Assembly: GCF_002868845.1 (NCBI RefSeq)
Contig: NZ_PKUB01000046.1
Location: 686-48,044 of the forward strand
Length of the DNA: 47,359 nt
DNA from: Desulfuromonas sp.
GTDB lineage: Bacteria > Desulfobacterota > Desulfuromonadia > Desulfuromonadales > BM501
Direction of reading: 5' to 3'
Positions 8,744-24,325 of the stretch are shown here, in pieces (the stretch's first letter is position 1; the number at the start of each line of letters is the position of its first letter). The notes under the pieces were generated by a model. The model saw nothing but the letters and a program-made list of their open reading frames with translations. It did not search any database and was not told the DNA's origin. Made by a program: the position numbers and the translations under genes.

Positions 8744-11298
8744 CAGCCGACCACGACGTTGACCAGCCGGCCGGGCACGACGATCACCTTGCGCAGGGTT
8801 TTGCCATCGACGAAACGGGCCACGTTGGAATCGGCCAGGGCGGTCTTCCTGACGGTCTCCTCGTCGGCATCTGCGGGAACCGTCACCTTGCCCCGCATCT
8901 TTCCGTTGACCTGGACCACGATGGTCTTTTCCTGCTCGGCCAGAGCCTCTTCGACCCAGGCGGGCCATCCCGCCTTTTCGAGTCCTCCTTCATGCCCGAG
9001 GCAGCTCCAGAGCTCCTCGCTCACGTGGGGAACGAAGGGCGCCAGTAGCCGAACGACGGTCTCGAGGGCTTCTCGCAGGGTCGCCGGGCACTCCGCCTTC
9101 GCCTCGAAACCGTAGATGGCGTTGACAAGCTCCATGACCGCGGCGATGGCGGTGTTGAAGTGAAAGCGCCCGTCAACGTCCTCGGTCACCTTCTTGATGG
9201 TCCGGTGGGTCTGCCGGCGCAGGGCCCGGCCCGCCTCTTCGAAGGGGGCCGTGGAGCCGGCTTCGGGCAGGGCGTCGAGGTTTTCGGAGACGGCCCGCCA
9301 GACCCGGTTAAGAAAGCGGTAGCAGCCCTCCACCCCCTGCTCGTTCCATTCCAGATCCTTCTCGGGGGGAGCGGCGAAGAGGGAGAAGAGCCGGGCCGTG
9401 TCGGCGCCGTAGCGCTCGATGAGGCTGTCGGGGTCGACGACGTTCTTTTTCGACTTGCTCATCTTCTCGTTGCGGCCGGTCTCGGCCTCGCTGCCGCAAC
9501 GGGCGCACTTATCGTCCCGCACCTCCTCAGGCAGCAGCCAGCCGTGCTCGGGGCAGGAGCGGGTCTACATGCAGACCATCCCCTGGGTGAGAAGGTTCTT
9601 GAACGGTTCGTCGACCTCCATCATCCCCAGGTCCCGCATCACCTTGGTGAAGAAGCGGGCGTAGAGCAGGTGCATGACCGCGTGCTCGATCCCCCCGATG
9701 TACTGATCGACGGGCAGCCAGTACTCGGCGGCCTTCCGGTCGACGGGCCCGGAGGCGAAACCGGGGCAAGCGTAGCGGGCGAAATACCACGAGCTCTCGA
9801 CGAAGGTGTCGAAGGTGTCGGTCTCGCGCCGGGCGCTCTGCCCGCAACGGGGGCAGTCGACCTTGTAGAACGATTCGTTGGCGGCCAGGGGGCTGCCCCC
9901 CTCGCCGCTGAACTCCACGTCGTGGGGCAGGACGACCGGCAGGTCCTGCTCGGGGACCGGGATCACGCCGCAGGCGTCGCAGTAGATCACCGGGATCGGG
10001 GTTCCCCAGTAGCGCTGCCGGGAGACGCCCCAATCCCGCAGGCGGAAATTAACGGTCTTCTTGCCGAGTCCCTTCTCATCGAGGAAGGCGGCAATGCGTT
10101 CCTTGGCCTCGTCGTTGCCGAGCCCGTCGAACTGCCCGGAATGGACCATGGTCCCGGGGCCGGTCCAGGCCTCTTCCATCTGCTCCGGGTCGAGGAGGTC
10201 CCCCTCGGGCTGGATCACGACGGTCATGGGAAGGTCGTACTTGCGGGCGAAATCGAAATCGCGCTGGTCGTGGGTCGGAACCGCCATGACCGCGCCGGTG
10301 CCGTAGTCCATGAGGACGAAGTTGGCCAGGAAGACCGGCATCCGTTGCCCCGTCACCGGGTTGATGCAGTAGGAGCCGGTGAACACGCCCTCCTTTTCCA
10401 GCTCGTCACTGGTCCGCTTGAGCTTGTCCTGTTTCTTGACCCGGGCGATGAAGGCCTCGACCTCGGCGCGGCGCTCATCGGTGGCGAGGGCGAGGGCCAT
10501 GGGGTGCTCCGGCGCCAGGCTCATGAACGTGGCCCCGAAGAGGGTGTCCTGCCGGGTGGTGAAGACCCGGATCGTCTCTGCGGAACCTTCCCGGGGAAAG
10601 TCGATCTCACAGCCGAAGCTCTTGCCGATCCAGTTGCGCTGCATGGTCAGAACAGGCTCGGGCCAGCCGGTCAGGTTGTGCGTTTCCTGAATCAGCTCCT
10701 CGGCATAGTCGGTGATCTTGAAAAACCACTGCTCGAGTTCCTTCTGCTCGACCCCTGTATCACAGCGCCAGCAGCAGTCATCCTCGACCTGTTCGTTGGC
10801 CAGGACGGTCTGGCAGGCCGGGCACCAGTTCACGAAGGAACTCTTCTTGTAGGCCAGCCCCCGTTCCAGCATGCGAAGGAAGATCAGCTGCTCCCATCGG
10901 TAGTAGTCGACGTCACAGGTGGCAAGCTCGCGGTCCCAGTCATATGAAAAGCCCATCTTCTTGAGCTGGACGCGCATGTTGTCGATGTTTTCGTAGGTCC
11001 ACTTGGCCGGGTGGGTGCCGTGCTGAATGGCTGCGTTTTCTGCGGGCATCCCGAAAGCGTCCCACCCCATGGGGTGGAGCACGTTATAGCCTTGCAGGCG
11101 CTTGAAGCGGGCCACGACATCGCCGATGGAGTAGTTCCGGACATGCCCCATGTGAATCCGCCCCGAGGGATAAGGAAACATCTCGAGAAGGTAGAATTTC
11201 CGGCGGTCCTCCTCTTCGGAGACCTTGAAGGTCTGGTTCTTGACCCAGATATCTTGCCACTTGCACTCAATGGCAGCGGCATCGTATCGATCTTGCAT
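8743..11298 (-). CDS. leuS: Leucyl-tRNA synthetase, interrupted by an in-frame TAG
   Basis: Class I synthetase that charges tRNA-Leu. The full span is 851 codons, normal for bacterial LeuRS. In order: HMGH at 49-52 (HIGH motif), the large CP1 editing domain with [14 protein letters not shown] and [12 protein letters not shown], the second half of the catalytic domain, KMSKS at 612-616, the helical anticodon domain, and the C-terminal domain ending [13 protein letters not shown]. Codon 578 (9565-9567) is TAG. Similarity continues in the same frame on both sides (LLTQGMVCM, stop, [15 protein letters not shown]), so this is a point nonsense codon rather than a frameshift. The first possible restart, GTG at 9522, has no properly spaced ribosome site. 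The start ATG 11298 has GGAGGAAAC just before it. Base-call error, suppression or a genuine split are discussed in the findings. Confidence 0.9.
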
Positions 11299-11886: not shown

Positions 11887-12267
11887 TCAACCGGGCAGGT
11901 TCAACAGCCTTCTGGCCGTCTCCAGGATCCGGGCGGTCTGAATCGGCTTGGTGATGTAGTCGTTGGCGCCGAGGGCCAGCGCCCGTTCCCGGTCTTCTTC
12001 CGCCCCCTCTGTGGTGATAATAACAATAGTGACGTCCTTGTAAAGAGGATCGTTGCGGGCCAGGCTGACCAGTTTCAGGCCATCCATGATGGGCATGTTG
12101 ATATCGGTGAAAATCATGTCGAACTTCTCGTTGGACAGCTTTTTCAGGCCATCCACCCCGTCGCACGCCTCGGTGATGTCCAGCCCTCGAATCCGCTTGA
12201 GGGCGAAGAGAATAAGCTGGCGCATGGTGGGCGAGTCTTCGACGACCAGTACTTTGTATGCGGACAT
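11887..12267 (-). CDS. CheY-like single-domain response regulator
   Basis: 126-residue receiver domain with no output domain. Conserved residues are the acidic pair E10-D11, phospho-acceptor D55 in FTDINMP, the switch threonine in IVIITTEGA, and the lysine in YITKPIQT. It should be phosphorylated by the CheA of this operon (inferred from position and family). It is the last gene of the operon, 18 nt after the GAF protein, and closely resembles the CheY at 22672-23040 in the segments around the phosphorylation site (TDINMP, followed by a TEG triplet before the lysine). Confidence 0.9.
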
Positions 12268-12285: not shown

Positions 12286-13116
12286 CTACTTGGTCAACAT
12301 TTCAATAAAACCCTGGATGGTGGACAGCTTCCGCTCGGACTCCGAATAGAGCTTGGAGGAAAAAATGGCGGTCGCGGCATGTCCGGCCAGCAGGGTGAAG
12401 AGTTCATAATCGAGTTCGGCAAACTTGTTTTTCTGCACGAGAAGCTTGTAGATGACGATGACCCCGATGACATGCTCCTTGATCTTGAGGGGGATGCAGA
12501 CCAAGGGGTGCTGGAAGTCCCGGACGTAACCCTCCATATCGTCGATGAAGTAGTTATCCCCGGTCTCCGCCATCTGACCGATGAGCCCTTCGCCGAGATG
12601 AATGGTCGGGATTTCGGAGGACTCGATTCCTTCGCTGGCCACGGCCTGAAGGATGTTGGTCTTTTCGTCGAGGAGCATGATCGAGAACTCCTCGGCCCCG
12701 ACCAGGTTGATGACGATTTCGGTGATCACCTGCAGCACTTCGCGGAAATCGAGGGTCGAATGGAGCTGGTAGGACGCTATGTAGAGATTGGCCAGGCTGT
12801 TGTTCTCGGTCTCGACCTCCAGGTAGCGGTTGGCGAAATCGAGGTTCTCGGCCTCGACATGCTTGATCCGGTCGAGTATCTCCTTCTTTTCAGACTCCAG
12901 CACGGCGAGGCGCTCGCGCATTTTTTCGAATTCATCGTCGGACGAACTGCCTACGTCCCCACTTTTCTTCGCCGCTTCGTTCAGGTCCAGGACCTGAAAG
13001 CGCAGGCGCTCGTTTTCCTTGAGGAGGTCCTGAGTGAACTCTGCCCCCTTCTTGAACATGTGCAGAAATTCCTCGGCCCGCGAGGCCGTCCCCCTATTAT
13101 CGTCCTGATCGCTCAT
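12286..13116 (-). CDS. Coiled-coil GAF domain protein
   Basis: 276-residue soluble protein. Residues about 25-115 are rich in E, K, L and N with heptad spacing (predicted coiled coil). Residues about 125-260 form a GAF domain: the stretch [30 protein letters not shown] and [23 protein letters not shown] are typical. GAF domains bind small ligands or mediate dimerisation; no ligand can be assigned. It may feed a cytoplasmic signal into the pathway, which lacks any encoded chemoreceptor. ATG 13116 is preceded by GAGGAG at 7 nt; a TTG five codons upstream is less likely. A 114-nt gap separates it from cheB, the longest inside the operon. Confidence 0.8.
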
Positions 13117-13230
13117 TCCAGCTCTCCTCAAGCGGAAAAGATTGAACCGCTGGCGGGCATCCTATCAGCCTGCCAGAAAAATTGCCAGTTTAGAAAATCC
13201 CCCTTCGCGCCGTTCCACCAGCGCCGAAGG

Positions 13231-14310
13231 TCACCTCCGGCGGCCAGCCTCGCACCAGCGAAGGATCTCTTCGCCCATCCGCGGCAAGGCCACGACCTGG
13301 TCGACCTTTCCTGTCGCGATGGCCTCCTTGGGCATCCCGAACACCACACTGCTCTCCTCGGCCTCGGCCAGGGTCGCGCCGCCGGCATCCTTGATGGCGA
13401 TGATCCCCTTGGCCCCGTCGTTGCCCATTCCGGTCAGGACCACCCCGAGAATACTCGGCCCGAAGGCCTCGCTGGCCGAGGCGAACATGACGTCAACCGA
13501 AGGGACATAACGCTGGTCGGGACCGGGGGACACCACCGAGGCCACGACCTTGTCCCCCCTGGAGCGGAAGAGAAGGTTCTTTCCCCCGGGGGAAATGAGC
13601 ACCCGCCCGGGTTTCATGACATCGCCGGAGCGCGCCTCTCGAACCTCCAGGGCGCAGACCTTGTCAAGCCTCTCGGCGAAGGCCCGGGTAAAGCCGGGCG
13701 GCATGTGTTGAGATATGGCGATGCCGACCGGGATCGGCCCCTTGATGGCAGAAAGGATCTGCTGCAACGCGGGGGGACCACCCGTGGAGGCGCCGATGAC
13801 GATCTGCCTGAAAGGCCCCTCCCCGCCGACCTCCCATTTCCGACGACTGCGGCCTGCCACGACCTGATCGGCGCCGAGGGCCGAAAGGGACCGGGCGAGA
13901 ATTTTATTCATGTCGGTGCAGGCGATCTGGCGGACCTTGCGCACCAGGTCATCACGAATATTGGCCAGTGCGGGGGAGATCTTCCCCGGAGGCTTGGTCA
14001 CGAATTCGACTGCACCGAGTTCCAGGGCCTTGAATACGCTGGAATCCTCGCTCCGGGCCGAAACCACGATCACCGGGGTGTGCCGTTTCTGCATAACCAC
14101 GCGCAGGAAGGTGAACCCATCCATGCGGGGCATCTCCAGATCGAGGGTAACCAGGTCCGGCTCCAGGTCGAAGAACTTCCGCAGCCCCTCCTCTCCGTCG
14201 CAGGCATAGCCGACGACCTCGATCCCGGGAACGACCTCGAGCATTTTCACGATGGTTCTGCGGTTGTAGGCCGAGTCGTCGACCACCAGGACCCGCACCT
14301 TCTTGCTCAT
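13231..14310 (-). CDS. cheB: Chemotaxis protein-glutamate methylesterase CheB
   Basis: 359-residue two-domain protein. Residues 1-120 are a receiver with D57 as phosphorylation site (LDLEMPRMDG). From about 165 comes the methylesterase domain, with catalytic S175 in VIGASTGGPPA, the histidine in SQHMPPGFT, and the aspartate in LTGMGNDGAKG. It removes methyl groups from receptor glutamates, and can deamidate glutamines, when phosphorylated by CheA. Its ATG overlaps the cheR stop in an ATGA junction. The presence of an intact cheB/cheR pair implies that a methylatable receptor exists elsewhere in the genome. Confidence 0.95.
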   Translation of the reverse strand: MSKKVRVLVVDDSAYNRRTIVKMLEVVPGIEVVGYACDGEEGLRKFFDLEPDLVTLDLEMPRMDGFTFLRVVMQKRHTPVIVVSARSEDSSVFKALELGAVEFVTKPPGKISPALANIRDDLVRKVRQIACTDMNKILARSLSALGADQVVAGRSRRKWEVGGEGPFRQIVIGASTGGPPALQQILSAIKGPIPVGIAISQHMPPGFTRAFAERLDKVCALEVREARSGDVMKPGRVLISPGGKNLLFRSRGDKVVASVVSPGPDQRYVPSVDVMFASASEAFGPSILGVVLTGMGNDGAKGIIAIKDAGGATLAEAEESSVVFGMPKEAIATGKVDQVVALPRMGEEILRWCEAGRRR

Positions 14311-15182
14311 GCCCGGCCTCCCGCAGTCTGCCCGAGGCCCGGACGCTGGTAAACCATGTCATGAGTGTAGTGCCGCAGCACAAAGGCGTTGCTGATGTTC
14401 ATAAGCGATTCGGAATGCCCCAGCAAAAGGAAGCCCTCGGGCCGGAGCCGGTTGTGAAAACCTTCGACCACGCGGCGCTTGGCCGCGAGGTCGAAATAGA
14501 TAATGACGTTCCGGCAGAAGACCACGTCCATGGTTCCGAGAAGGGCGACCCGGGAAGAGTAAAAGAGGTTGAGATGGCTGATGCTGACCAAATTCTTGAC
14601 CCGGTCCGCTATCTGGAACTTGCCATTGACTTCGGTGAAAAAGCGCCGCTTGTAGGAGGGCTCGGTACTCCGGAAGGAGGAATCGCCGTACTCACCCTTG
14701 CGGGCGAGCTGAAGCACGCGTTGGCTGATATCGGTTCCGACGATCTCGATCTGCCAATCGTGAAAGGAGGGGTCATCCAGCAGGAGCATGGCGATGGTGT
14801 AGGGTTCTTCGCCCGTGGAGCACCCCGCGCTCCAGATCCTGAGCCGCTTTTCCCCGAGGGTTTCTTTGCGCCTGCGGATTTCGGGAAGGATCTCGTCCGT
14901 GAAGGTCTTGAGCTGAAAATCTTCACGGAAAAAGTACGTCTCGTTGGTGGTCAGAACGTTGATGACCTCGGTGAACTCCTGATCCTTGTCCTGGTTGTAA
15001 CGCAGCAGGTAATAATATTCCTTGAAATTCTTCAACCGGTGGTGCCGGACCCTTTTGCCGAGGCGTTTTTCAAGCAGGTACTTGGAGTCCTCGGTAAAGT
15101 GGAGCCCGCAATGCTGATACACCAGGTCCCTGAGCAGTCGGAACTCCTCTTGGTCCATGGGGATTTCGGGGGCAAACAGCAT
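14307..15182 (-). CDS. cheR: Chemotaxis protein methyltransferase CheR
   Basis: 291-residue SAM-dependent methyltransferase that methylates receptor glutamates. The N-terminal helical domain contains LVYQHCGLHFTEDSKYLLEKRL. The catalytic domain has NETYFFRE, IWSAGCSTGEEPYTIAMLL (SAM binding) and DVVFCRNVIIYFD. No TPR extension is present. I chose ATG 15182 (MLFAPEIP), eleven bases after the stop of the HEAT gene; ATG 15158 (MDQEEF) is possible but has no ribosome site, and the still longer open frame overlaps the HEAT gene and has no similarity. Confidence 0.93.
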   Translation of the reverse strand: MLFAPEIPMDQEEFRLLRDLVYQHCGLHFTEDSKYLLEKRLGKRVRHHRLKNFKEYYYLLRYNQDKDQEFTEVINVLTTNETYFFREDFQLKTFTDEILPEIRRRKETLGEKRLRIWSAGCSTGEEPYTIAMLLLDDPSFHDWQIEIVGTDISQRVLQLARKGEYGDSSFRSTEPSYKRRFFTEVNGKFQIADRVKNLVSISHLNLFYSSRVALLGTMDVVFCRNVIIYFDLAAKRRVVEGFHNRLRPEGFLLLGHSESLMNISNAFVLRHYTHDMVYQRPGLGQTAGGRA

Positions 15183-15192
15183 AATGGAAGGA

Positions 15193-17205
15193 TTACCCCT
15201 GTGAAATGGGCCACTGGGCCAGAAAATCGCGGATCTCCGCCTGAACCAGGTCATCGTCCTCGACCCGCAGGCGGCGTTCGAGGTGGGGCCTGCTCGCCGG
15301 CCCTTCCAGGAATCCGAGGATGCGGATAAAGGTACTTCGCACTTCCCGGTGACGATGGTTGAGCAGTCCGTCCAAAGACGCGGAGATCCAGTCCCGGAAT
15401 CCCCGCTCTCCAAGCATTTTCAGGGCCGCGTTCACAACCTCCACATCTTCGTGGCCAAGAGCATGAACGAAATGGAGGGAATACTTTTCGAAATCGAGAA
15501 CTGCAAGAGTCTCCAGGGCGGCAATGACCACCAGGCCGACGGGGTCGTGCAGGGCTTTTTCGATCACGGGAACAGGCGCCTGTGCGCCGAGCAGGCCGAG
15601 GGACCTCACCGCCGCTGTGCGCACCCAGGGATCTTCGTCCTGAAGGGCCAGTTCGAGGGGGCGGCTCGCCTGAATATCGCCGGCGCTTCCGAGCACCTCG
15701 GCGGCCAGCCGCCTCACCTCCTTGTCCTCATCGGTCAGGGCCAGCATCAGTACCGGCAGGTGTCCCGCGATCGGTTTTCCCTCCAGGGCGCAAATCGCGG
15801 CCCGTCGCACCGTCTGTGAGTGGTCCTTGATGGCTAAAGCCAAAAAACCGTCGATCTCTTCGCCCTCGAGACGGCCCAGGACCCGAACGGCCAGAGTCCT
15901 CAGGGATGGGTCATCGTGTTCGAGGAGATCCTTCAGGGCGGTCACCGTCTGGGCGGGAAAACTTGCACCAAGCAGGGAGAGTGACTGAAGAGCCGATTCA
16001 CGAACTTCGTCGGACGGGTCCTCAAGGGCGGTGAGAAGACCGGCAAAGCTCGCCGGATCATCGAGCTTTCCAAGGGCCCGGGCGGAAATTGCCCGAACGT
16101 CCTGGTCATCGTCGGACAGCCCTTTCAGCAGGACCGCTGTCCCTTCCCGGCAACCCGTCTCCCCGACCGTGTAGGCCGTCATAACCCTGGCGAAGCTCTC
16201 CAGGCCGTCCCAGGCGGGCAGCAGCGTCCGGGCCGCATGGGGACCGAGGGCGACCAAGGCCCGGGCCGCCTCTTCCCTCAGTTCCTCGTCGTCGGCCAGT
16301 TCGAGCAGGCGACGGCTGTGGCGTTCATCGCCCAACAGGCCCATGAGCCGGACCGCTGCCAGGCGGACGCGGGGGTCGCCGCTGCCCAGAAGCTCCCCGG
16401 GGTCGAGCGCCGCGGCGGCTCCCCCCTCCGGGCGCAGAGAAGAGAAGGCGTCGTGGGAAATCCGCTGTGAAAGACTCTCCAGGGCCACGGCGGCGGCCTC
16501 GCGAACCGTGCGCATTTCGTCCCCCAAACCGCCGGCCAGGGACGCGACGGCGTCGGCTCCGCCGACCCGGCCAAGGCACTCGAAGAGGGCCTTTCGCAGC
16601 AGGGGCTCTTCCTGAAGGGGAAGGAGTTTTTTGACATCGACCGGGGCGCCGATGCGGCCCAGGGCGTCGAGAATGGTGTACCGGAACCAGAGATCGGCCG
16701 TGTCCATGACGTCCACAAGGTGGGGGACCGCCTCGGGCAGTCCGAGCTTGCCGAGGTTCTCCGCGGCCGCCTGGCGCACGTTCTGGTCGGCATCGGCAAG
16801 AGCGTCGATCATCGTCTGCAGGCAGCTTCCGTCCCCGATCTCCCCGAGGATGTCGAGAACGAACTTGCGCACGTCCTGCTCGTCGCTGAGAACCTCCTTG
16901 AACAGCAGGGGCAGGACAGGCTGGCCGAGGCGGACAAGGATTTCGACGGCTGCGTTGCGCTGGCCGGCATTGTCGTGCTCGTAGAGCAGCCGGGCGACCT
17001 CTCCGGCAAACCTCTCGGGAGCGGGCCGGGAGAGGAAAATCTCCGTCGCCTCCTTGCGCACCCGCCAACTGGAGTCTCCCATGGCGCGGTACAGGCAGGG
17101 ACGGACCTCTTCCTCCGGAGCGTTGCATATCTCGTTGAGAATCCCGAGCCGCTCTTCCTCCTGCCCCGACTCCAGGATTTCAAGAATCTTATCGACCTTC
17201 TTCAC
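15193..17205 (-). CDS. HEAT-repeat protein of the chemosensory operon
   Basis: 670-residue all-helical protein built almost entirely of HEAT (PBS-lyase-like) repeats of about 31 residues. Recurrent patterns are D-x-x-V-R-x-A-A-x-x-L-G-x-L-G, for example DQNVRQAAAENLGKLG, DEVRESALQSLSLLG and DKEVRRLAAEVLGSAG. No catalytic motif, signal peptide or membrane segment is seen. Such superhelical proteins act as scaffolds or binding surfaces. Its place between the zinc-ribbon regulator and cheR, with 8- and 10-nt gaps, suggests it binds a member of this pathway, possibly a phosphorylated regulator (inference). The start is GTG 17205 with AGGTG upstream. Confidence 0.87.
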   Translation of the reverse strand: MKKVDKILEILESGQEEERLGILNEICNAPEEEVRPCLYRAMGDSSWRVRKEATEIFLSRPAPERFAGEVARLLYEHDNAGQRNAAVEILVRLGQPVLPLLFKEVLSDEQDVRKFVLDILGEIGDGSCLQTMIDALADADQNVRQAAAENLGKLGLPEAVPHLVDVMDTADLWFRYTILDALGRIGAPVDVKKLLPLQEEPLLRKALFECLGRVGGADAVASLAGGLGDEMRTVREAAAVALESLSQRISHDAFSSLRPEGGAAAALDPGELLGSGDPRVRLAAVRLMGLLGDERHSRRLLELADDEELREEAARALVALGPHAARTLLPAWDGLESFARVMTAYTVGETGCREGTAVLLKGLSDDDQDVRAISARALGKLDDPASFAGLLTALEDPSDEVRESALQSLSLLGASFPAQTVTALKDLLEHDDPSLRTLAVRVLGRLEGEEIDGFLALAIKDHSQTVRRAAICALEGKPIAGHLPVLMLALTDEDKEVRRLAAEVLGSAGDIQASRPLELALQDEDPWVRTAAVRSLGLLGAQAPVPVIEKALHDPVGLVVIAALETLAVLDFEKYSLHFVHALGHEDVEVVNAALKMLGERGFRDWISASLDGLLNHRHREVRSTFIRILGFLEGPASRPHLERRLRVEDDDLVQAEIRDFLAQWPISQG

Positions 17206-17213
17206 CGTTTCAC

Positions 17214-18107
17214 CTATACCGTGGAGGCCAGCTGAAGCTCCCGCTGCTGCCGCTCAATAAGGGCGCTGAAGGCGTTGCCCAGGAAATCCTCCTGCCGGGC
17301 AAGTTCGGGAGCGACCCGTTGGTTGAAGAGGCGACGCCCCTCTTCAATCTCTTCGGACAGCAATTCAAAAAACGTGCCACCACGGACCCCCTCCTCGACC
17401 CGGTCCTGATTATACAGGACAATATCAGAGACGATGATGTGAGCGAGACGGCGGGCCTTGTCTTCCTCACCGGTCAGTTCCGTGGCCGATTCGCCCCCTT
17501 CGGTCCTGCGCAGAGCCTCATCGAGTTCCTGGCGCTCTTCAGCCACGGCAGTGCCCTCCCCGGCTGCAACGGGCGGCGCTGGGGCTGGGGCCTCGACCCC
17601 GATCCCGACCAGTTCGCGAATCTTCGGAACCAGATCGCCGGGGATGTGGTGCTTCTCCAGGTAATCGTCGGCGCCGTAGAGGGTCTCGGGCCTGCGTTTG
17701 TAGGCCGTTTTGTTGTAAATAGACGACAAGAGGATGATTTTAACTTTTTCGAGTCCGGGGGTGTGACGGATCTTGTCGATCACCTCGAAGGCAAAAACCC
17801 CTTGCAGACCGACGTCGAGAAGGACCACATTGGGCCCGAGTTCGGCGATGGACCGCAGGGCCTGATGCCCGTCCTGGCAAGCGGTGCAGGCCATCCCCTC
17901 CTTATCGAGAAGGCGACCGATGGAGCCGCACAGGTCCAGGTCACTGTGGCACACAACCACCCGCAGGCCGGAAGGGGGTTGGGGCGCAGGGGTGTCGACC
18001 TTGAAAACCCTCTGGCAACGGGGGCACTTCAGAGAGACACGTTTGCCTTGAATTCGCCGGGGCTCGATGCGAAAGCGGGTACGACAGGCGGGGCAACTCA
18101 GAGTCAT
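17214..18107 (-). CDS. Zinc-ribbon plus receiver domain protein
   Basis: 297-residue protein. Residues 1-40 form an MJ0042-type zinc ribbon with two CxxC pairs (CPACRTRFRI and KCPRCQRVFKV). Residues about 48-170 form a receiver domain: VVVCHSDLD at the acidic pocket, probable acceptor aspartate in VVLLDVGLQG, SS in ILLSSIY, and DDYLEKH containing the lysine. After an Ala/Glu-rich linker, residues 215-297 are helical and charged, with IIVSDIVLYNQDRVEEGVRGGTFFELLSEEIEEGRRLF. The C-terminal part has no name I recognise. It is probably a CheA target with a protein- or nucleic-acid-binding function; the zinc ribbon does not decide which. Confidence 0.82.
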   Translation of the reverse strand: MTLSCPACRTRFRIEPRRIQGKRVSLKCPRCQRVFKVDTPAPQPPSGLRVVVCHSDLDLCGSIGRLLDKEGMACTACQDGHQALRSIAELGPNVVLLDVGLQGVFAFEVIDKIRHTPGLEKVKIILLSSIYNKTAYKRRPETLYGADDYLEKHHIPGDLVPKIRELVGIGVEAPAPAPPVAAGEGTAVAEERQELDEALRRTEGGESATELTGEEDKARRLAHIIVSDIVLYNQDRVEEGVRGGTFFELLSEEIEEGRRLFNQRVAPELARQEDFLGNAFSALIERQQRELQLASTV

Positions 18108-18175: not shown

Positions 18176-18706
18176 TCATCCTTCGGCCGGATTGGGCAGG
18201 GGCGGGAGTTTTTCAAGATCGATTTTTTCTTCGCTGGAGAGGATTTTCTCCAGATCGAGGACCATGACCAGGTCGTCCTCCCGGCGGCATACACCGAGAA
18301 AAAACTGCGCCCCCCTTCCTTTCAGGAACTGGGGAGCGGGATGGACCTCTTGGCGGCCGTAGCGGCACACCTCGTAGACATCATCGACCAGAAGACCGAC
18401 GACCTTACCTCTCATGGCGCATATGATGATGCGCGTCTTGCGCCCCGGTTCCGTGACCGACTGTTCGAAACGTTTGCGCAGGTCGACCACCGGGATGACC
18501 GCCCCGCGCAGGTTAATGACACCCTCGATAAAGGCGGGAGCCTTCGGCACGGGAGTCAATTTCTGCGGCCGGATGATCTCCTTGATGCGGAGGATGTCCA
18601 GTGCGTAGGTCTCCTCGCCCACCCTGAAGCAGGCCAACTGGACCTCCTGGCGCACTTCCCCCGCTTCAATCGGGGACTCAGTGGACGGGCCGGGGGTGAG
18701 GATCAT
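18176..18706 (-). CDS. cheW: CheW adaptor protein (first of two)
   Basis: 176-residue CheW that should bridge receptors and CheA. After a 20-residue variable N-terminus comes the standard domain: VQLACFRVGEETYALDILRIKEIIRPQKLTPVPKAPAFIEGVINLRGAVIPVVDLRKRF, then a kinase-contact region and ILSSEEK. It is longer than E. coli CheW by its acidic C-terminal tail. The ATG overlaps the upstream cheY stop (ATGA), indicating translational coupling of regulator and adaptor. Confidence 0.93.
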   Translation of the reverse strand: MILTPGPSTESPIEAGEVRQEVQLACFRVGEETYALDILRIKEIIRPQKLTPVPKAPAFIEGVINLRGAVIPVVDLRKRFEQSVTEPGRKTRIIICAMRGKVVGLLVDDVYEVCRYGRQEVHPAPQFLKGRGAQFFLGVCRREDDLVMVLDLEKILSSEEKIDLEKLPPLPNPAEG

Positions 18707-19074
18707 TTTCCGACGAACCTCTGAATGGTTTCGATCACCATGGCGGATTTGAAGGGTTTGGTGATGTACCAGTCAGCGCCGACCTTTTCGCCGCGAGCCA
18801 TGTCCTCACGGCTTTTTTTGGCGGTCAGCATGATCACCGGCAGGTTCTTGGTGGCCTCGGCGGCCTTGATGCGGCGGCAGACTTCAAAGCCGTCGATCTC
18901 CGGCAGCATGATGTCGAGCAGCACCAGGTCCGGCACGTCCTCGGCAAGGGAATCTAGGGCGGCTTGACCGCTGGCCACTCCCTTTACTTCATATCCCTTG
19001 GAGGTCAACAGGATACTCTCGAGTTTGAGCAGGCTCTCCTCGTCTTCGACGATCAGGATTCTCTTGTTCGACAC
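18703..19074 (-). CDS. CheY-like response regulator
   Basis: 123-residue receiver. E10-D11 form the acidic pocket, D54 is the acceptor in LLDIMLPEIDGFEVC, T is in VIMLTAKKS, and K in WYITKPFKSAMV. The LPEIDGFEVCRRIK wording is closer to PilH/OmpR-type receivers than to the two other CheY proteins of the operon, which read NMPxxxGL. It may therefore have a different partner or act as a phosphate sink (inference). GTG start with AAGGAG 7 nt upstream. Overlaps cheW by four bases. Confidence 0.9.
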   Translation of the reverse strand: MSNKRILIVEDEESLLKLESILLTSKGYEVKGVASGQAALDSLAEDVPDLVLLDIMLPEIDGFEVCRRIKAAEATKNLPVIMLTAKKSREDMARGEKVGADWYITKPFKSAMVIETIQRFVGK

Positions 19075-19095: not shown

Positions 19096-19815
19096 TCAAC
19101 AAAGTTCTGCATCCAGAACGCTTGGCAAATGCAAAAGAATCATCATCCGTTCCTGATCCCTCCCCACCCCTTCGACCATGTCCCGGTCCAGGCCGGACAG
19201 AACGCCCGGTGGCGGTTCGATCTGCGCGGAATGGAGACGAACGACGTGACTGATCCGATCGACCAGCAGGCCCACGTGGCGATCCCCCTGCTGGCATATG
19301 ACGATGCGGGACATGGGTGTCAATTCTCCGACTCCCAGATTGAGACGTTTCTTCAGGTCGAATACCGGGGTGATGATCCCCCGCAAAGAGATGATCCCCA
19401 GAATGAATTCGGGGGCCCGGGGGATATCGGTGATCTCCCGGGGCTTGATGATCTCACCGACATGCTCGATATCGACGGCGTATTCCTCGGCGCCGAGGGT
19501 AAATGCCAACCACTGACGCAGGTCCCGGGTCTCCTCCCGACGGTGATCGATCAGGCCTTGAAGGTAGCTCTCCTCGGTGGCCAGGTCGAGTTCGGGTCGC
19601 CAGGCGAACAAAGCTTCCAGAGGATCTACTCCATCGGGTTCGTCCGGCTCAACCGTGCCCATGGAGAAGAACTCAGGTTCGTCCCCGACCTGAGGAGCCC
19701 CCTGGATGGAGGAAGCGTTGCGCACCGGAGCGGACTTGACCGGTGGCGGCCCTCCGACGTCCCTTGCCTTATCAGGCGCTTGCTTGGCTTTTTTTCGGAT
19801 TTCGGCGAGATCCAT
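19096..19815 (-). CDS. cheW: CheW-like protein with N-terminal extension
   Basis: 239 residues. The first 100 are a charged, low-complexity, probably disordered extension that includes LFAWRPELDLATEESYLQGL and the helix IDHRREETRDLR. The C-terminal 140 are a complete CheW domain: LAFTLGAEEYAVDIEHVGEIIKPREITDIPRAPEFILGIISLRGIITPVFDLKKRLNLG, ending LLHLPSVL. Two different CheW proteins in one operon suggest two docking modes or two receptor classes for the same CheA. ATG 19815 has GGAAGG just upstream. The previous gene ends 15 nt before. Confidence 0.9.
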   Translation of the reverse strand: MDLAEIRKKAKQAPDKARDVGGPPPVKSAPVRNASSIQGAPQVGDEPEFFSMGTVEPDEPDGVDPLEALFAWRPELDLATEESYLQGLIDHRREETRDLRQWLAFTLGAEEYAVDIEHVGEIIKPREITDIPRAPEFILGIISLRGIITPVFDLKKRLNLGVGELTPMSRIVICQQGDRHVGLLVDRISHVVRLHSAQIEPPPGVLSGLDRDMVEGVGRDQERMMILLHLPSVLDAELC

Positions 19816-19830
19816 CGATCCTTCCCCTCA

Positions 19831-20634
19831 TTAGCCCAGATTCAATTCACCCATGACCGCGTCCATGACCTCCGGGCCGATGCGGTGCGCTTCTCGCCCG
19901 AACCCTTCGAGCAGGGCCAAAGAGGCTGCATGGTTGATTTTTCGCGGGATGCCGCCGGAATAGTCAAAAATCCGTCCCACGGCCCCGGGCAGAAAGAGAC
20001 CGGGTTCCCCCCCTGCGACCTGCAGGCGATGATCAAGGTAGTCGCCGGTCTCGTCGAGGGTCAACGGTTTAATATCAAATTGCATGCCAATGCGCTGACG
20101 CAAAGGTTAGTAGACCCGGTGCGCCAGCCTCTTCCTCAATTCGGGCTGCCCCATCAGGACGACGCTCATCAGGTTGCGGTCGTCGAGTTGAAAATTGGTC
20201 AGCAACCGGATTTCGTCGAAAGTCTCCTTGTGAGGAACGAGCTGCGCCTCGTCGATGACCAGCACCGGACAAACCCCCTCTTGGTACAGACCGTAAAGCT
20301 CTCCACCGATCTGCTCCAGCAGATCGGTCTTTAACCGTGACGGTTCCTGAATCCCGAGGCGCCGGGCCAGGGTTCTGAGGAACTCCAGGGGCGTCAGACG
20401 CGGGTTGATAAAGAGGATGATCTTGTAGCCGTCCTCCAGCTGATCCATCAAGGCCCTGGAGAGGGTGGTCTTGCCGCAGCCGATCTCCCCGGTAAGGAGA
20501 ATCAGATCGCGCTCCTCGACGGCGTAAAGCAGCCTCGACAGACCTTCGCGATGCATTCGGCTTCCGAACAGAAAGCGCGGGTCGGGGGTTTTGCTGAAAG
20601 GCCTTTCGGCCAACCGGTAGAACCCCTTATACAT
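19831..20634 (-). CDS. ExeA/TniB-like AAA ATPase, interrupted by an in-frame TAA
   Basis: The full span is 267 sense codons plus the internal stop, the size of the ATPase module of ExeA/GspA-like proteins. Visible features are the N-terminal MYKGFYRLAERPFSKTPDP typical of this group, Walker A in LTGEIGCGKTTLSRAL, Walker B in VLVIDEAQLV, and the sensor region LMSVVLMGQPELRKRL. After codon 175 a TAA (20107-20109) interrupts the frame, and similarity resumes directly in the same frame as PLRQRIGMQFDIKPLTLDETGDYLDHRL, with GIPRKINHAASLALLEG near the end. Neither half would be a complete AAA module. Its start overlaps the end of cheA by eight bases, so it is part of the chemosensory operon; an ATPase of this kind is not a classical chemotaxis component. 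No membrane or peptidoglycan-binding segment is present. Confidence 0.82.
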
Positions 20635-22663
20635 AAAAGGCCGTATCTCCGCGCAGGGTCTCGCTCATCAGGCCACCGACATCGAGGACCAGGATGGTCT
20701 TCTGGTTGCCGAGGTCCGCCGCGCCGGCGATCCCCTTCACGAAGGAGAGGGAGCTGCCGAGAGACTTGATAACCACGTCCTGTTGGCCGAGCAACTCGTC
20801 GACAACGATTCCCATGCGTTTCTCGGCCAACCCGACCACTGCGACGAAACATCGCTGATCGCCCCTTTTGCTGCCCGCCAGCTGGAAAACCTCCCCGAGA
20901 CGCAGCAGGGGCAGTGTGCTTTCCCTGAGCTGAATCACCTCCCGGCGCTCGATGGTTCGAATTTCCCCGGGCTCGACCATGAGGGTCTCCATGACCGCGT
21001 TAATGGGGACCGCGTAGGTCTTGGTGCTGACGCGGATGATCAGCGCCTTGATGATTGCCAGGGTGATGGGAAGAGTGATGGTGATCGCGGTGCCTTGCCC
21101 CACCTTGCTGTCGATCTCGATCATCCCGGAGAGGGCGGAAATATTATTTTTGACCACGTCCATGCCGACCCCTCGGCCCGACAGGTCACTCACCTCTTCG
21201 CAGGTGGAGAACCCGGGCAGGAAGATGAGGTCATAGATGTCCTCCCGGCTCAGCTCGGTTCCCTCTTCGATAAGCTCCTTCTCCAGGGCCTTGCCGCGAA
21301 CCTTGTCGGGATCGATGCCGCGGCCGTCGTCGTTGACCTCGATCACCACGTGATTGCCCTTTTGGGACGCGTTCAGACGGATGGTCCCTTTTTCGGGCTT
21401 CCCTCTGGATTGCCGCTCCGCGGCGCTCTCGATGCCGTGATCGATGGCATTGCGGATAATATGCATGAGGGGATCAGAGAGGTCTTCGACGATAAGCTTG
21501 TCCAGCTCGGTTTCCGCACCGTGAATTTCGAGGGCGACCTTCTTGTCGTGTTCATGGGCCACCCGCCGCACGATTCGTGTCATCTTTTCGAAAAGCTGCC
21601 CGACGGGAACCATGCGCACCTCGAGAACCCCCTTCTGCAGCTCCTCCAATCGTCGCTCCAGGGTTCGGGTCGCTTTCTGCAGTTCGCCTGCAAGATCGCC
21701 GTTGCCGTCGAACTTGAGACGCTCGTTGATGGAGGCGATAGCCCCTTTGGAAAGGACCAGCTCGCCGACGATATTCATCAGGGAATCGAGCTTTTCGATG
21801 TCCACCCGCACCGTGCGGCTGATCGAACGCAGGGACTCACTGCCTGCGCGATCGTCCTCGTCAGCTACACTGGCGGAAGGGGGAGTTTCCTGGGCCGGCT
21901 CTTCCTTTGCCCCGGTTTTCTTTCCCTGGATCACCGCCTCCACCGAGAGGCCGTCACGGTCCAGACGGCTGGAAATCTGCTCGGGAGAGCAGGACGTCCC
22001 GATGAGTATCTGAAAGGCGATCTGGTCGCTGAGGTCTTCGGCGAGGGGAAGGGTGCTGATGACCTCCCATTCCTTCTTGAGAGTATCGGTGATTTCGGCC
22101 AACTCCACATCGAAGCTGCCAAGGTCGAAGGCGGCCTTGACCCGGACCAGGTTGCGACCGTTTTTGACGTTCTCCCAGAGCCGGTGCTCCTCGTACTCGG
22201 TCAGGACCTTGAGCAGCTCCGGATCGATTTCCTGCTCTGTCCCGCCGGGGCCGCCGGCTCCACCGCCGCCGAGAATGCTCTCGATGCGCCCGACGAGCGG
22301 TCCAAGATCGAGGGTAAAATCCTCATCCTCCCCCTTGCCCTGGACGATGCGGGTCAAGGTGTCGAGGGCCGCGAAAAGGGTCTCCATCACTTAGGCGGTG
22401 AGGGGAACCTTGCCGAGACGCAAGCTGTCGAGGAGATTTTCCTTGTAGTGGGCCAGCTGGGAAATATCGTCGAAACCGAACATCCCGGAGAGTCCCTTGA
22501 TGGAATGGGCCCCACGAAAGATGCTGTTGAGCAGATCGGGGTCGGTCTCACCTCCGGCCGCCTGATCGCCAAGGGCCATTAGATCGAGGTTGAGCTTTTC
22601 AATGATTTCCTCGGCCTCGCCCAAGAATTCCCGGACTGCTTGACCTGAAACCTTGTCCGCCAT
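20627..22663 (-). CDS. cheA: Chemotaxis histidine kinase CheA, interrupted by an in-frame TAA
   Basis: The full span is 678 codons including one internal stop. P1 (HPt) begins at residue 1, with the phosphorylated H53 in FRGAHSIKGLSGMFGF. Codon 91 is TAA (22391-22393), inside the last part of P1, and the frame continues VMETLFAALDTLTRIVQGKG. Next comes a Gly-rich linker and a conserved region (DPELLKVLTEYEEHRLWE to about IQGKK) in the usual P2 position. Then P3 dimerisation (KLDSLMNIVGELVLSKGAI), the P4 ATPase with MHIIRNAIDHGIE (N box), DDGRGIDPDKV (G1), LIFLPGFST (F box), GRGVGMDVVKNNI (G2), and a P5 CheW-like domain. No receiver domain is fused. The resumed part has no ribosome site and P1 would be cut short, so two natural genes are unlikely. 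ATG 22663 has GGAG at 5 nt. Confidence 0.9.
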
Positions 22664-22671
22664 CGATTCTC

Positions 22672-23040
22672 CTACCCGAGGTACTGCCTGACGAGGGTCT
22701 GAAGCTCGTCAGGGGAAAAGGGCTTGACCAGGTAAGCGTCGGCACCGAGCTTCAGGCCCTTTTCCCGGTCCCGTTCGCTTCCCTCGGTGCTGATAATGAA
22801 CAAAGGAGTGTTTTTGTAATTGGGATGGTTCTTGATAAAGCTGACGAGTTCCAGGCCGTTGATATCCGGCATATTGATATCGGTGATCACCAGATCGACC
22901 TTCTCCCTGGGGAGAATACGCAGGGCTTCGAAACCGTTGGCGGCCTCGACAAAGGAATAGTCGTCCATGGTCGCCATGGTGGAAACGATCAGCGAGCGCA
23001 TGGTCGGTGAATCTTCAGCGATCAGGATCTTCTTCGGCAC
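22672..23040 (-). CDS. cheY: CheY-like response regulator (cheA-proximal)
   Basis: 122-residue receiver. E9-D10 are acidic-pocket residues, D54 is the acceptor in VITDINMPDINGLELV, T is in LFIISTEGSERD, K in YLVKPFSPDEL. Its position directly ahead of cheA (8-nt gap) makes it the most likely principal target. GTG start at 23040 with GGAGG six bases upstream. It looks like the regulator at the far end of the operon (11887-12267), as though the two arose by duplication. Confidence 0.92.
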   Translation of the reverse strand: MPKKILIAEDSPTMRSLIVSTMATMDDYSFVEAANGFEALRILPREKVDLVITDINMPDINGLELVSFIKNHPNYKNTPLFIISTEGSERDREKGLKLGADAYLVKPFSPDELQTLVRQYLG

Positions 23041-23080: not shown

Positions 23081-24325
23081 TCAGACCCGCCCCCCCACAA
23101 GGCGCCGCTCGATAATGGCCCTCTCCATAGCCAGGCCGGCCTGGGAAAGAAAAATCTCGAACGCCTCGGTGTCCCCGATCGGTTTTTTCTCAGGGAGGTT
23201 GTCCCCGTAAATCAGGGCCACGACACGGCCTTCGCTGAGGATGGGCCCGAGGAAAATCTCTTCCGGAACCCCGCCGCCCAGTTGTTTCTGCAGATAGGCA
23301 TCCCAGGGGCTGTCCCCCGGTCGAACCCTGCAGGGAGAAAACTCCCGAACTGCCTCGGTGAGCCTCGAGGGCTCCTCCCGGGGAATCTTCATGCCCCGGA
23401 TCCGGACGTCCGCCATCTCCCGATCGAATTCTATACCGAACTGCCCTAATCCTACAATCTCATTTTCCTTGACCGAGAAGATCACCGCCCGATTCATCAC
23501 CTCGCTGGCGAAGCGAAGAATCAGCAGAACGACCCCACCACCAAGAGAAGGGTTGCTGAGTTCCTGCAGCATCCCCTTGAGCAGGTGAAGTCCGGGGGAC
23601 TTGGAGCCTTTGCCGGAAAGCGACACCTGATCGAGTTCACCCATTTCGCTGAGCAGTTCCGCACCGATATTAACGAGGGACGGAGACGGGGACGGGACCG
23701 GGGCCTGCATCGGCGGCGCAGAATCCGCCCCCTCGGCCAAGAGAGCCTCGAGGTTCAGGGTCGGCTCCTCCCTTACCGCAAGCGGTTCGCCGCGATGTCT
23801 CTTCTCGTCGAGAAGACGGCTTCCCTCCATGGCGAGCCATTGGGGATTGAGCCCCTCCTCAACGAAGAAAACAGGGGGATCGATCCCGGCGCCCCCCTCT
23901 TCAGCGAACCCGCAGGCTTCGTCGAGCCCGCCCAACTCAAAGGCGAAGGTCCCCTCCGCCCATCCGAAGAAGCTGAAGACAATCTTCTCGACCTGCTCTC
24001 TTGCGACCTGCTCTATGGCGTCCTTGGGGACCCCGAAACTCTCGCCGAGAATGGCCCCGAGGGACTGGCGGGTGGTGCCCCGTCTCTGCAGGTGCAGGGC
24101 GCCCTTGAGGGTCTCAAGGTCCACGACACCTTTGCGCACCAGGATGTCCCCGAGACCAGCCATGAAGAGACTCGACGTTGCCCGCGTCACCTGGCCGTCC
24201 TGGAAGAACATTTTTCCCTGCAGGCCGGGGCCCTCCAGAATCAGAGCCCCCGACTTGCGGCTGAGACTGACGATCTGAAGAATATCCCCCAACCCGAGAT
24301 CTTCGAGGTTGCCGACAAGACTCAT
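23081..24325 (-). CDS. DUF4388 (PATAN) protein with C-terminal GAF-like domain
   Basis: 414 residues, first gene of the chemosensory operon. Residues 1-110 match the DUF4388/PATAN pattern: LVGNLEDLGLGDILQIVSLSRKSGALILEG, then FFQDGQVTRATS and GLGDILVRKGVVD. Residues about 115-150 hold the FGWAEGTFAFELG element often seen after PATAN. A poorly conserved linker follows, and residues about 245-405 look like a divergent GAF fold (VVLLILRFASEVMNRAVIFSV to FLSQAGLAMERAIIERR). PATAN domains are known in proteins that work with CheY-like regulators; a role as a protein-interaction node is inferred. No membrane segment. Confidence 0.8.
   Translation of the reverse strand: MSLVGNLEDLGLGDILQIVSLSRKSGALILEGPGLQGKMFFQDGQVTRATSSLFMAGLGDILVRKGVVDLETLKGALHLQRRGTTRQSLGAILGESFGVPKDAIEQVAREQVEKIVFSFFGWAEGTFAFELGGLDEACGFAEEGGAGIDPPVFFVEEGLNPQWLAMEGSRLLDEKRHRGEPLAVREEPTLNLEALLAEGADSAPPMQAPVPSPSPSLVNIGAELLSEMGELDQVSLSGKGSKSPGLHLLKGMLQELSNPSLGGGVVLLILRFASEVMNRAVIFSVKENEIVGLGQFGIEFDREMADVRIRGMKIPREEPSRLTEAVREFSPCRVRPGDSPWDAYLQKQLGGGVPEEIFLGPILSEGRVVALIYGDNLPEKKPIGDTEAFEIFLSQAGLAMERAIIERRLVGGRV

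Follow-up and report, generated by a model that had tools for sequence, protein, structure and literature searches.

In a window of 47,359 nt from Desulfuromonas sp. (contig NZ_PKUB01000046.1; the window is the whole stretch of DNA that was analysed), we found that the AAA+ ATPase gene lying between cheA and cheW is real and conserved and forms an overlooked accessory to a chemosensory cluster of known kind, and that it probably serves the chemosensory system of its cheA. We give an even chance to the proposal that its product is a dedicated soluble AAA+ accessory of an EsnC/EsnB-type chemosensory system, which would load or remodel the CheA complex.

Structure of the ATPase gene and its cluster

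The original prediction described an ExeA-like ATPase which starts inside the end of cheA with an 8-nt overlap, carries a Walker A and a Walker B motif and is interrupted by TAA at codon 176, and all of these features were present (Table 1). In the ORF reading of the window the frame has 267 codons plus a stop on the minus strand; it opens with ATGTATAA, the final bases of which are the stop of cheA, the start ATG lies within the final 8 nt of cheA, and the regular stop is the TAA at 19831-19833. The minus strand of the ATPase, the TAA in cheA and a TAG in leuS did not appear in that prediction. The ATPase frame matched AAA_22 in Pfam (E 6.9e-25) and the read-through protein matched PF13401, the N-terminal AAA_22 domain, at E 2e-24. 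On the sequence evidence the frame is more than a chance reading, given the AAA_22 match, the overlap retained in all relatives and the conservation after the stop at the level of the relatives. The genes of the cluster are transcribed in the order DUF4388, cheY, cheA, ATPase, cheW, cheY, cheW, zinc-ribbon receiver, HEAT, cheR, cheB, GAF and cheY.

Table 1. Positions of the ATPase features and of the surrounding chemosensory genes in the window
Feature	Position	Strand	Remark
AAA+ ATPase, GspA/MshM type, soluble	19831..20634	-	TAA interrupts at codon 176
Overlap of cheA end and ATPase start, 8 nt	20627..20634	-	ATGTATRA in 25/25 relatives
Walker A GEIGCGKTT, residues 49-57	20464..20490	-	
Walker B VLVIDEAQ, residues 124-131	20242..20265	-	
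In-frame TAA of ATPase, codon 176	20107..20109	-	Glu there in 25/25 relatives
DUF4388 protein, opens the conserved cluster	23081..24325	-	
cheY-like receiver, upstream of cheA	22672..23040	-	
cheA (Hpt, dimerisation, HATPase_c and CheW domains)	20627..22663	-	In-frame TAA at 22391-22393
cheW, directly downstream of ATPase	19096..19815	-	
Receiver-domain protein, cheY-like	18703..19074	-	
Second cheW	18176..18706	-	
Zinc-ribbon and receiver-domain protein	17214..18107	-	
HEAT-repeat protein	15193..17205	-	
cheR	14307..15413	-	True start probably near 15200, where relatives align
cheB	13231..14310	-	
GAF-domain protein	12286..13131	-	
Third cheY-like receiver	11887..12267	-	

Conserved position of the ATPase gene after cheA

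Close orthologues of the ATPase were found in 25 of 37 related genomes of the order, with 71-83% of the first 175 aa identical, and the next best matches lay at <=44% identity. All 25 were uninterrupted, had cheA directly upstream and cheW downstream, and kept the 8-nt cheA/ATPase overlap (at two of these loci, L050 and L052, the contig stops farther along the cluster). The original prediction had named the same overlap with an uninterrupted frame in relatives as a check. This cheA, at E <= 1e-150, was likewise present in 25 of the 37 order genomes. The lists of the two genes differed in two genomes, G025 and G005, and eleven genomes had neither gene: G025 possessed the ATPase and its cheA was cut by a contig end, while in G005 cheA was present, the ATPase was cleanly absent and cheW came directly after cheA, which makes one of the 26 order genomes with this cheA. 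With two changes private to it among 186 columns that are otherwise invariant, the CheA of G005 showed no visible relaxation of constraint, and no compensating change stood out in its CheA, CheW or HEAT proteins. The gap in G005 lies at about 6816-6830 of L145, and with the ATPase present in its genus-mate G025 it offers a natural deletion for comparison.

A wider scan of named public genomes with alignment of the orthologues yielded 373 confirmed loci, of which the best 80 were kept, so that distant kin are unsampled. Among these best 80 of 373 loci, cheA was directly upstream of the ATPase in 80/80 and a CheW match was downstream in 79/80, the remaining one (L074) being cut by the end of the locus. 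The same 80 included Geobacter, Geomonas, Oryzomonas, Malonomonas and Desulfuromonadales MAGs, one locus labelled Chloroflexi (L084), where the contig was probably misbinned, and four of Nitrospirota type (L116, L125, L130 and L135). These four possessed the identical 8-nt overlap though their CheA identity was only 41-44%, and because the overlap is shared despite such identity, the sequences suggest that the che cluster moved between phyla. The overlap was exactly 8 nt in 43 of the best 80 of 373 loci, and Geobacter-type loci often had a short gap instead; six of the 80 values (801, 801, 801, 804, 53 and 107) are artefacts and the other 31 values differing from 8 were taken as spacings. A fixed stoichiometry with CheA, which had been proposed from the tight overlap, is therefore not upheld, since only 43 of the best 80 loci have an overlap of exactly 8 nt and the ATPase is missing from some cheA clusters.

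When 297 genomes were drawn evenly from across the phylum (cut-offs E <= 1e-90 for the ATPase and E <= 1e-130 for cheA), the ATPase was found in 18 genomes, between cheA and cheW in 18/18 and without this cheA in 0/18. This cheA was found in 26 of the 297 genomes, namely the 18 with the ATPase and eight without it, in which CheW followed cheA with no ATPase match between them. G098, which has cheA without the ATPase, belongs to the same genus as two ATPase-bearing genomes. The occurrence of the ATPase depends on this cheA and not the reverse, and because 1/26 order and 8/26 phylum genomes have the cheA cluster but lack the ATPase, the ATPase is not essential to the system. The original prediction held that absence from homologous che clusters would make the ATPase a chance neighbour; such absences do occur, in one related genome and in the eight phylum genomes, so that on a strict reading this objection holds in part, but the context is conserved far beyond this genome, and its conservation in the order, in the best 80 of 373 loci and in the phylum sample rules out a chance neighbour.

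Residues invariant in 80/80 of the best 80 of 373 loci were the Walker A G, K55 and T56, the Walker B D128 and E129, N147, R181 and R231, the last two of which we take to be the arginine finger and sensor 2. The Walker A Cys was present in 79/80 of the same best loci, a figure biased by the pattern used in the search, and loci found by profile also had Thr and Ser at this position.

In-frame stops of the assembly

Where relatives cover the stretch, its well-supported frames contained three stops and no more: the TAA of the ATPase, the TAA of cheA, which lies between Hpt and the remaining domains at a variable residue, and a TAG at 9565-9567 in leuS (11298 to 8743), where the residue is Glu in 21/21 relatives; a few further hits with one or two rows were judged to be frame-edge or antisense artefacts. 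leuS is the only LeuRS gene found in the genome. Elsewhere in the same genome, TAA or TAG occurred in 4 of 253 conserved-domain matches from four families (1/94, 1/42, 1/71 and 1/46). These four domain stops, L146, L177, L191 and L192, concern a response regulator, an ABC ATPase, a histidine kinase and a radical SAM protein. Sequence beyond the stops was as constrained as among the relatives, with an amino-acid identity in the ATPase of 0.657 vs 0.618 between relatives, and the window had 16 private changes at 1292 otherwise invariant columns, which is not above other genomes. One transversion class showed no significant enrichment (13/38 vs 138/602, p 0.12). The stops probably reflect wrong bases in the draft assembly of 3.7 Mb and 56 contigs, or else changes that arose very recently. 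Since 25/25 relatives have Glu where the ATPase has its TAA, and since the sole LeuRS gene is also stopped, an assembly error is the likeliest cause of the TAA; this reading rests on leuS and on the constraint after the stop, and not on the mutation spectrum. From the same comparisons, the full-length ATPase is probably the selected product.

It is improbable that the ATPase is a true pseudogene truncated at codon 176 in this organism: the TAA does stand in the assembly and the upstream cheA likewise has a stop, but the part after the TAA is constrained as in the relatives, and stops in this assembly are not reliable at face value because leuS and the 4/253 domain matches carry them too. According to the model, a real TAA would cost the ATPase its AAA+ lid together with the conserved R181 and R231. 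The two partial modules which the original prediction had envisaged for a real stop are unlikely, as the stop removes the whole lid and the part beyond it is still constrained. Decoding of TAA and TAG as Glu, under which the ATPase gene would be intact as written, is a far more remote prospect. The ATPase and leuS stops are both at Glu residues of the relatives (25/25 and 21/21), two of the four domain stops are at sites where the family presumably has Glu usually, and there is no TGA among the seven stops; against this, relatives vary at the residue of the cheA stop, the radical-SAM stop is apparently not at a Glu site, TAA and TAG also terminate normal genes here, and no TTA or CTA anticodon was present in the tRNAs found at 45 tRNA matches, a set which may be incomplete. 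After the family scans of the organism's own genome and the tRNA search, recoding of TAA/TAG as Glu was left unsupported.

Protein class and fold

The AlphaFold model of the read-through protein (pLDDT 93.9) is one AAA+ module with lid spanning residues 1-267, a complete predicted AAA+ fold for which the model and the domain search gave no membrane or cell-wall domain. By Foldseek the nearest solved folds were those of MuB filaments (E 6e-11), ORC/Cdc6 and TnsC, the top rows of VIA-align being tied at Z 20-21, and the best solved relative by sequence was MuB (E 7.7e-6). A GspA structure was absent from the VIA-align and Foldseek lists, which is uninformative on kinship. At E 1e-10, NCBIfam gave a single match, TIGR03015 (XrtA/PEP-CTERM-associated ATPase), whose 219.9 bits are below the curated cut-off of 324.5. 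Among characterised proteins, GspA/ExeA and MshM are the closest kin, and the assignment as ExeA-like was confirmed in that the protein is an AAA+ ATPase of the GspA/ExeA/MshM type. In a tree of 59 rows, one of which (L228) has a very long branch, the 37 che ATPases stood on one side of a branch with moderate support (76/84).

As modelled, the ATPase is a soluble AAA+ module of intact type and stands apart from GspA/ExeA, MshM and ParA-like proteins. It shares AAA_22 with GspA/ExeA of type II secretion assembly, and the GspA of its own genome (L137) is 39% identical over the N-terminal part; however, the ATPase is without the transmembrane and PG_binding_1 parts of GspA, and it adjoins cheA and cheW, with no gspB-like gene beside it. 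The own GspA matched PG_binding_1 at E 1.5e-11 and had a GspB-like (T2SSB-like) neighbour, a weak match below its cut-off. MshM is, like the ATPase, a soluble protein of AAA_22 type of about 270-280 aa with no further domain, but it belongs to another clade and stands in pilus loci with a secretin and an extension ATPase, whereas the ATPase stands between che genes in 25/25 relatives. Other soluble 280-aa members in the relatives were MshM in MSHA-type loci or stood beside GspB-like genes, the gene names around them being assigned by eye from translations. MshM has been described as dispensable for the amount of MSHA pilus in Vibrio cholerae in the available text of PMC4624765, which is a warning that ATPases of such kind can have subtle roles. 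With MuB/TnsC the ATPase has the AAA+ initiator-type fold in common (MuB 8xvb: VIA Z 20.0, rmsd 3.3, 229 aligned), but identity is about 20%, no transposase is nearby, che genes adjoin in 25/25 relatives, and the proteins of A1 are acidic (pI 4.9-6.2). Besides GspA, the search found a second superfamily protein of 311 aa in the same genome. It is another conserved soluble AAA_22 ATPase, encoded at L138:3470-4405 between a TPR-protein gene and mutL, with kin in L221 and L222.

Members of the ParA family have a deviant Walker A, and no ParA-type Pfam match was found for the ATPase at E 0.001. The likeness to ParC/ParP that had been drawn in the original prediction is functional at most: a gene in the che operon is an analogy with the array positioners ParC/ParP and PpfA, but ParC (ParA-like in the accessible part of PMC5706961) and PpfA are ParA-like, whereas this protein is an AAA_22-type AAA+ ATPase with Walker A GEIGCGKTT.

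Relation to the Esn system of Geobacter

The order CheW - ATPase - CheA of GSU2220-GSU2222 in the electrode sensing network (Esn) of Geobacter sulfurreducens, as given in the sources available, equals that of the window, and from this locus-tag order we infer that GSU2221 is the orthologue of the window ATPase. In the available part of PMC5585712, a transposon screen for growth on electrodes gave -2.1 for GSU2221 ('ATPase'), -2.4 for GSU2220 (esnB, CheW), -2.8 for GSU2222 (esnC, CheA) and -2.4 for GSU1704 (esnA, receptor), and pilus genes were also found in this screen. Clean deletions of esnA-D abolished growth on electrodes and left Fe(III) oxide reduction normal; as far as the same text goes, clean deletions were made for esnA-D only and the ATPase is not in the strain list (PMC5585712). 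The effect of GSU2221 in the screen could be polarity on the downstream cheW. The window comes from another lineage, and the electrode-growth effect is that of G. sulfurreducens. A later source names Esn as GSU1704, 2220, 2222 and 3376 and leaves out the ATPase in the part available (PMC13194489). The literature searched contained no study of the Esn ATPase by itself.

For the beta-group che clusters found in Geobacter and in other delta-proteobacteria, the available text of PMC2577667 (Tran et al.) describes a lack of mcp genes, conservation across species and, for a Geobacter cluster, an unpublished effect on the extracellular matrix. Such clusters have cheA, cheW, cheB and cheR and no mcp gene, as in the window, and we infer that the window cluster belongs to the beta group. 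The available text of PMC2577667 contains neither GSU22 tags nor HEAT or ATPase, which leaves its cluster 5 without a match to locus tags; the accessible part of PMC3543383 describes receptor classes only, and PMC10782961 has no mention of AAA.

Function of the ATPase and its alternatives

Loading or remodelling of the CheA complex is the most likely role, because of the Esn and beta-group literature together with the kinship of the protein. The ATPase is probably translated directly after CheA, through the overlap in this order and close spacing elsewhere. By analogy with its relatives GspA, MuB and TnsC, it may oligomerise with ATP, could act as a matchmaker which loads or remodels the complex of CheA, CheW and receptor, the HEAT protein perhaps taking part, and may be released upon hydrolysis. 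A role in building or positioning the array, as the original prediction supposed, is plausible. The bolder picture, in which the chemosensory array has its own AAA+ loader, a MuB/TnsC-like ATP-driven oligomer co-translated with CheA that would assemble, position or dismantle CheA-CheW-receptor arrays, is offered tentatively. To our knowledge, no ATPase of this class has been described as a factor of chemotaxis arrays, and the literature searches showed none. If the ATPase acts on the array, an AAA+ motor builds or turns over some chemosensory signalling complexes, which would be a new control layer; it would also fill a missing part of the pathway for electrode colonisation by Geobacter, where the screen shows an effect in the part of the source available.

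The main rival to the CheA-complex role is an envelope target on the output side: the ATPase might, in the manner of GspA or MshM, help to assemble or regulate an envelope structure (a pilus, a secretin or a matrix exporter) under chemosensory control, its operon placement ensuring that target and signal are made together. We regard this as possible but doubtful. The nearest characterised kin, the MshM genes of relatives in MSHA-type pilus loci, the extracellular matrix effect in the available text of PMC2577667 and the pilus genes in that of PMC5585712 speak in its favour, but domain searches found no pilus, secretin or export gene among the cluster genes of the window, and the same genes recur in the 25 relatives (a comparison with window genes as the only queries). 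Further, the ATPase has neither the membrane nor the peptidoglycan-binding part of GspA and is never apart from this cheA in the best 80 of 373 loci or in the 18 phylum loci. A passenger gene that stays beside cheA through operon inheritance, having no signalling role, would agree with the loss of the ATPase in several lineages while the rest of the cluster is visibly unchanged. This is an unlikely account in view of the 76% mean column identity of the ATPase over 26 sequences, the 25/25 identical overlaps, the same place in two phyla and, in the accessible part of PMC5585712, the Tn-Seq effect for the G. sulfurreducens gene.
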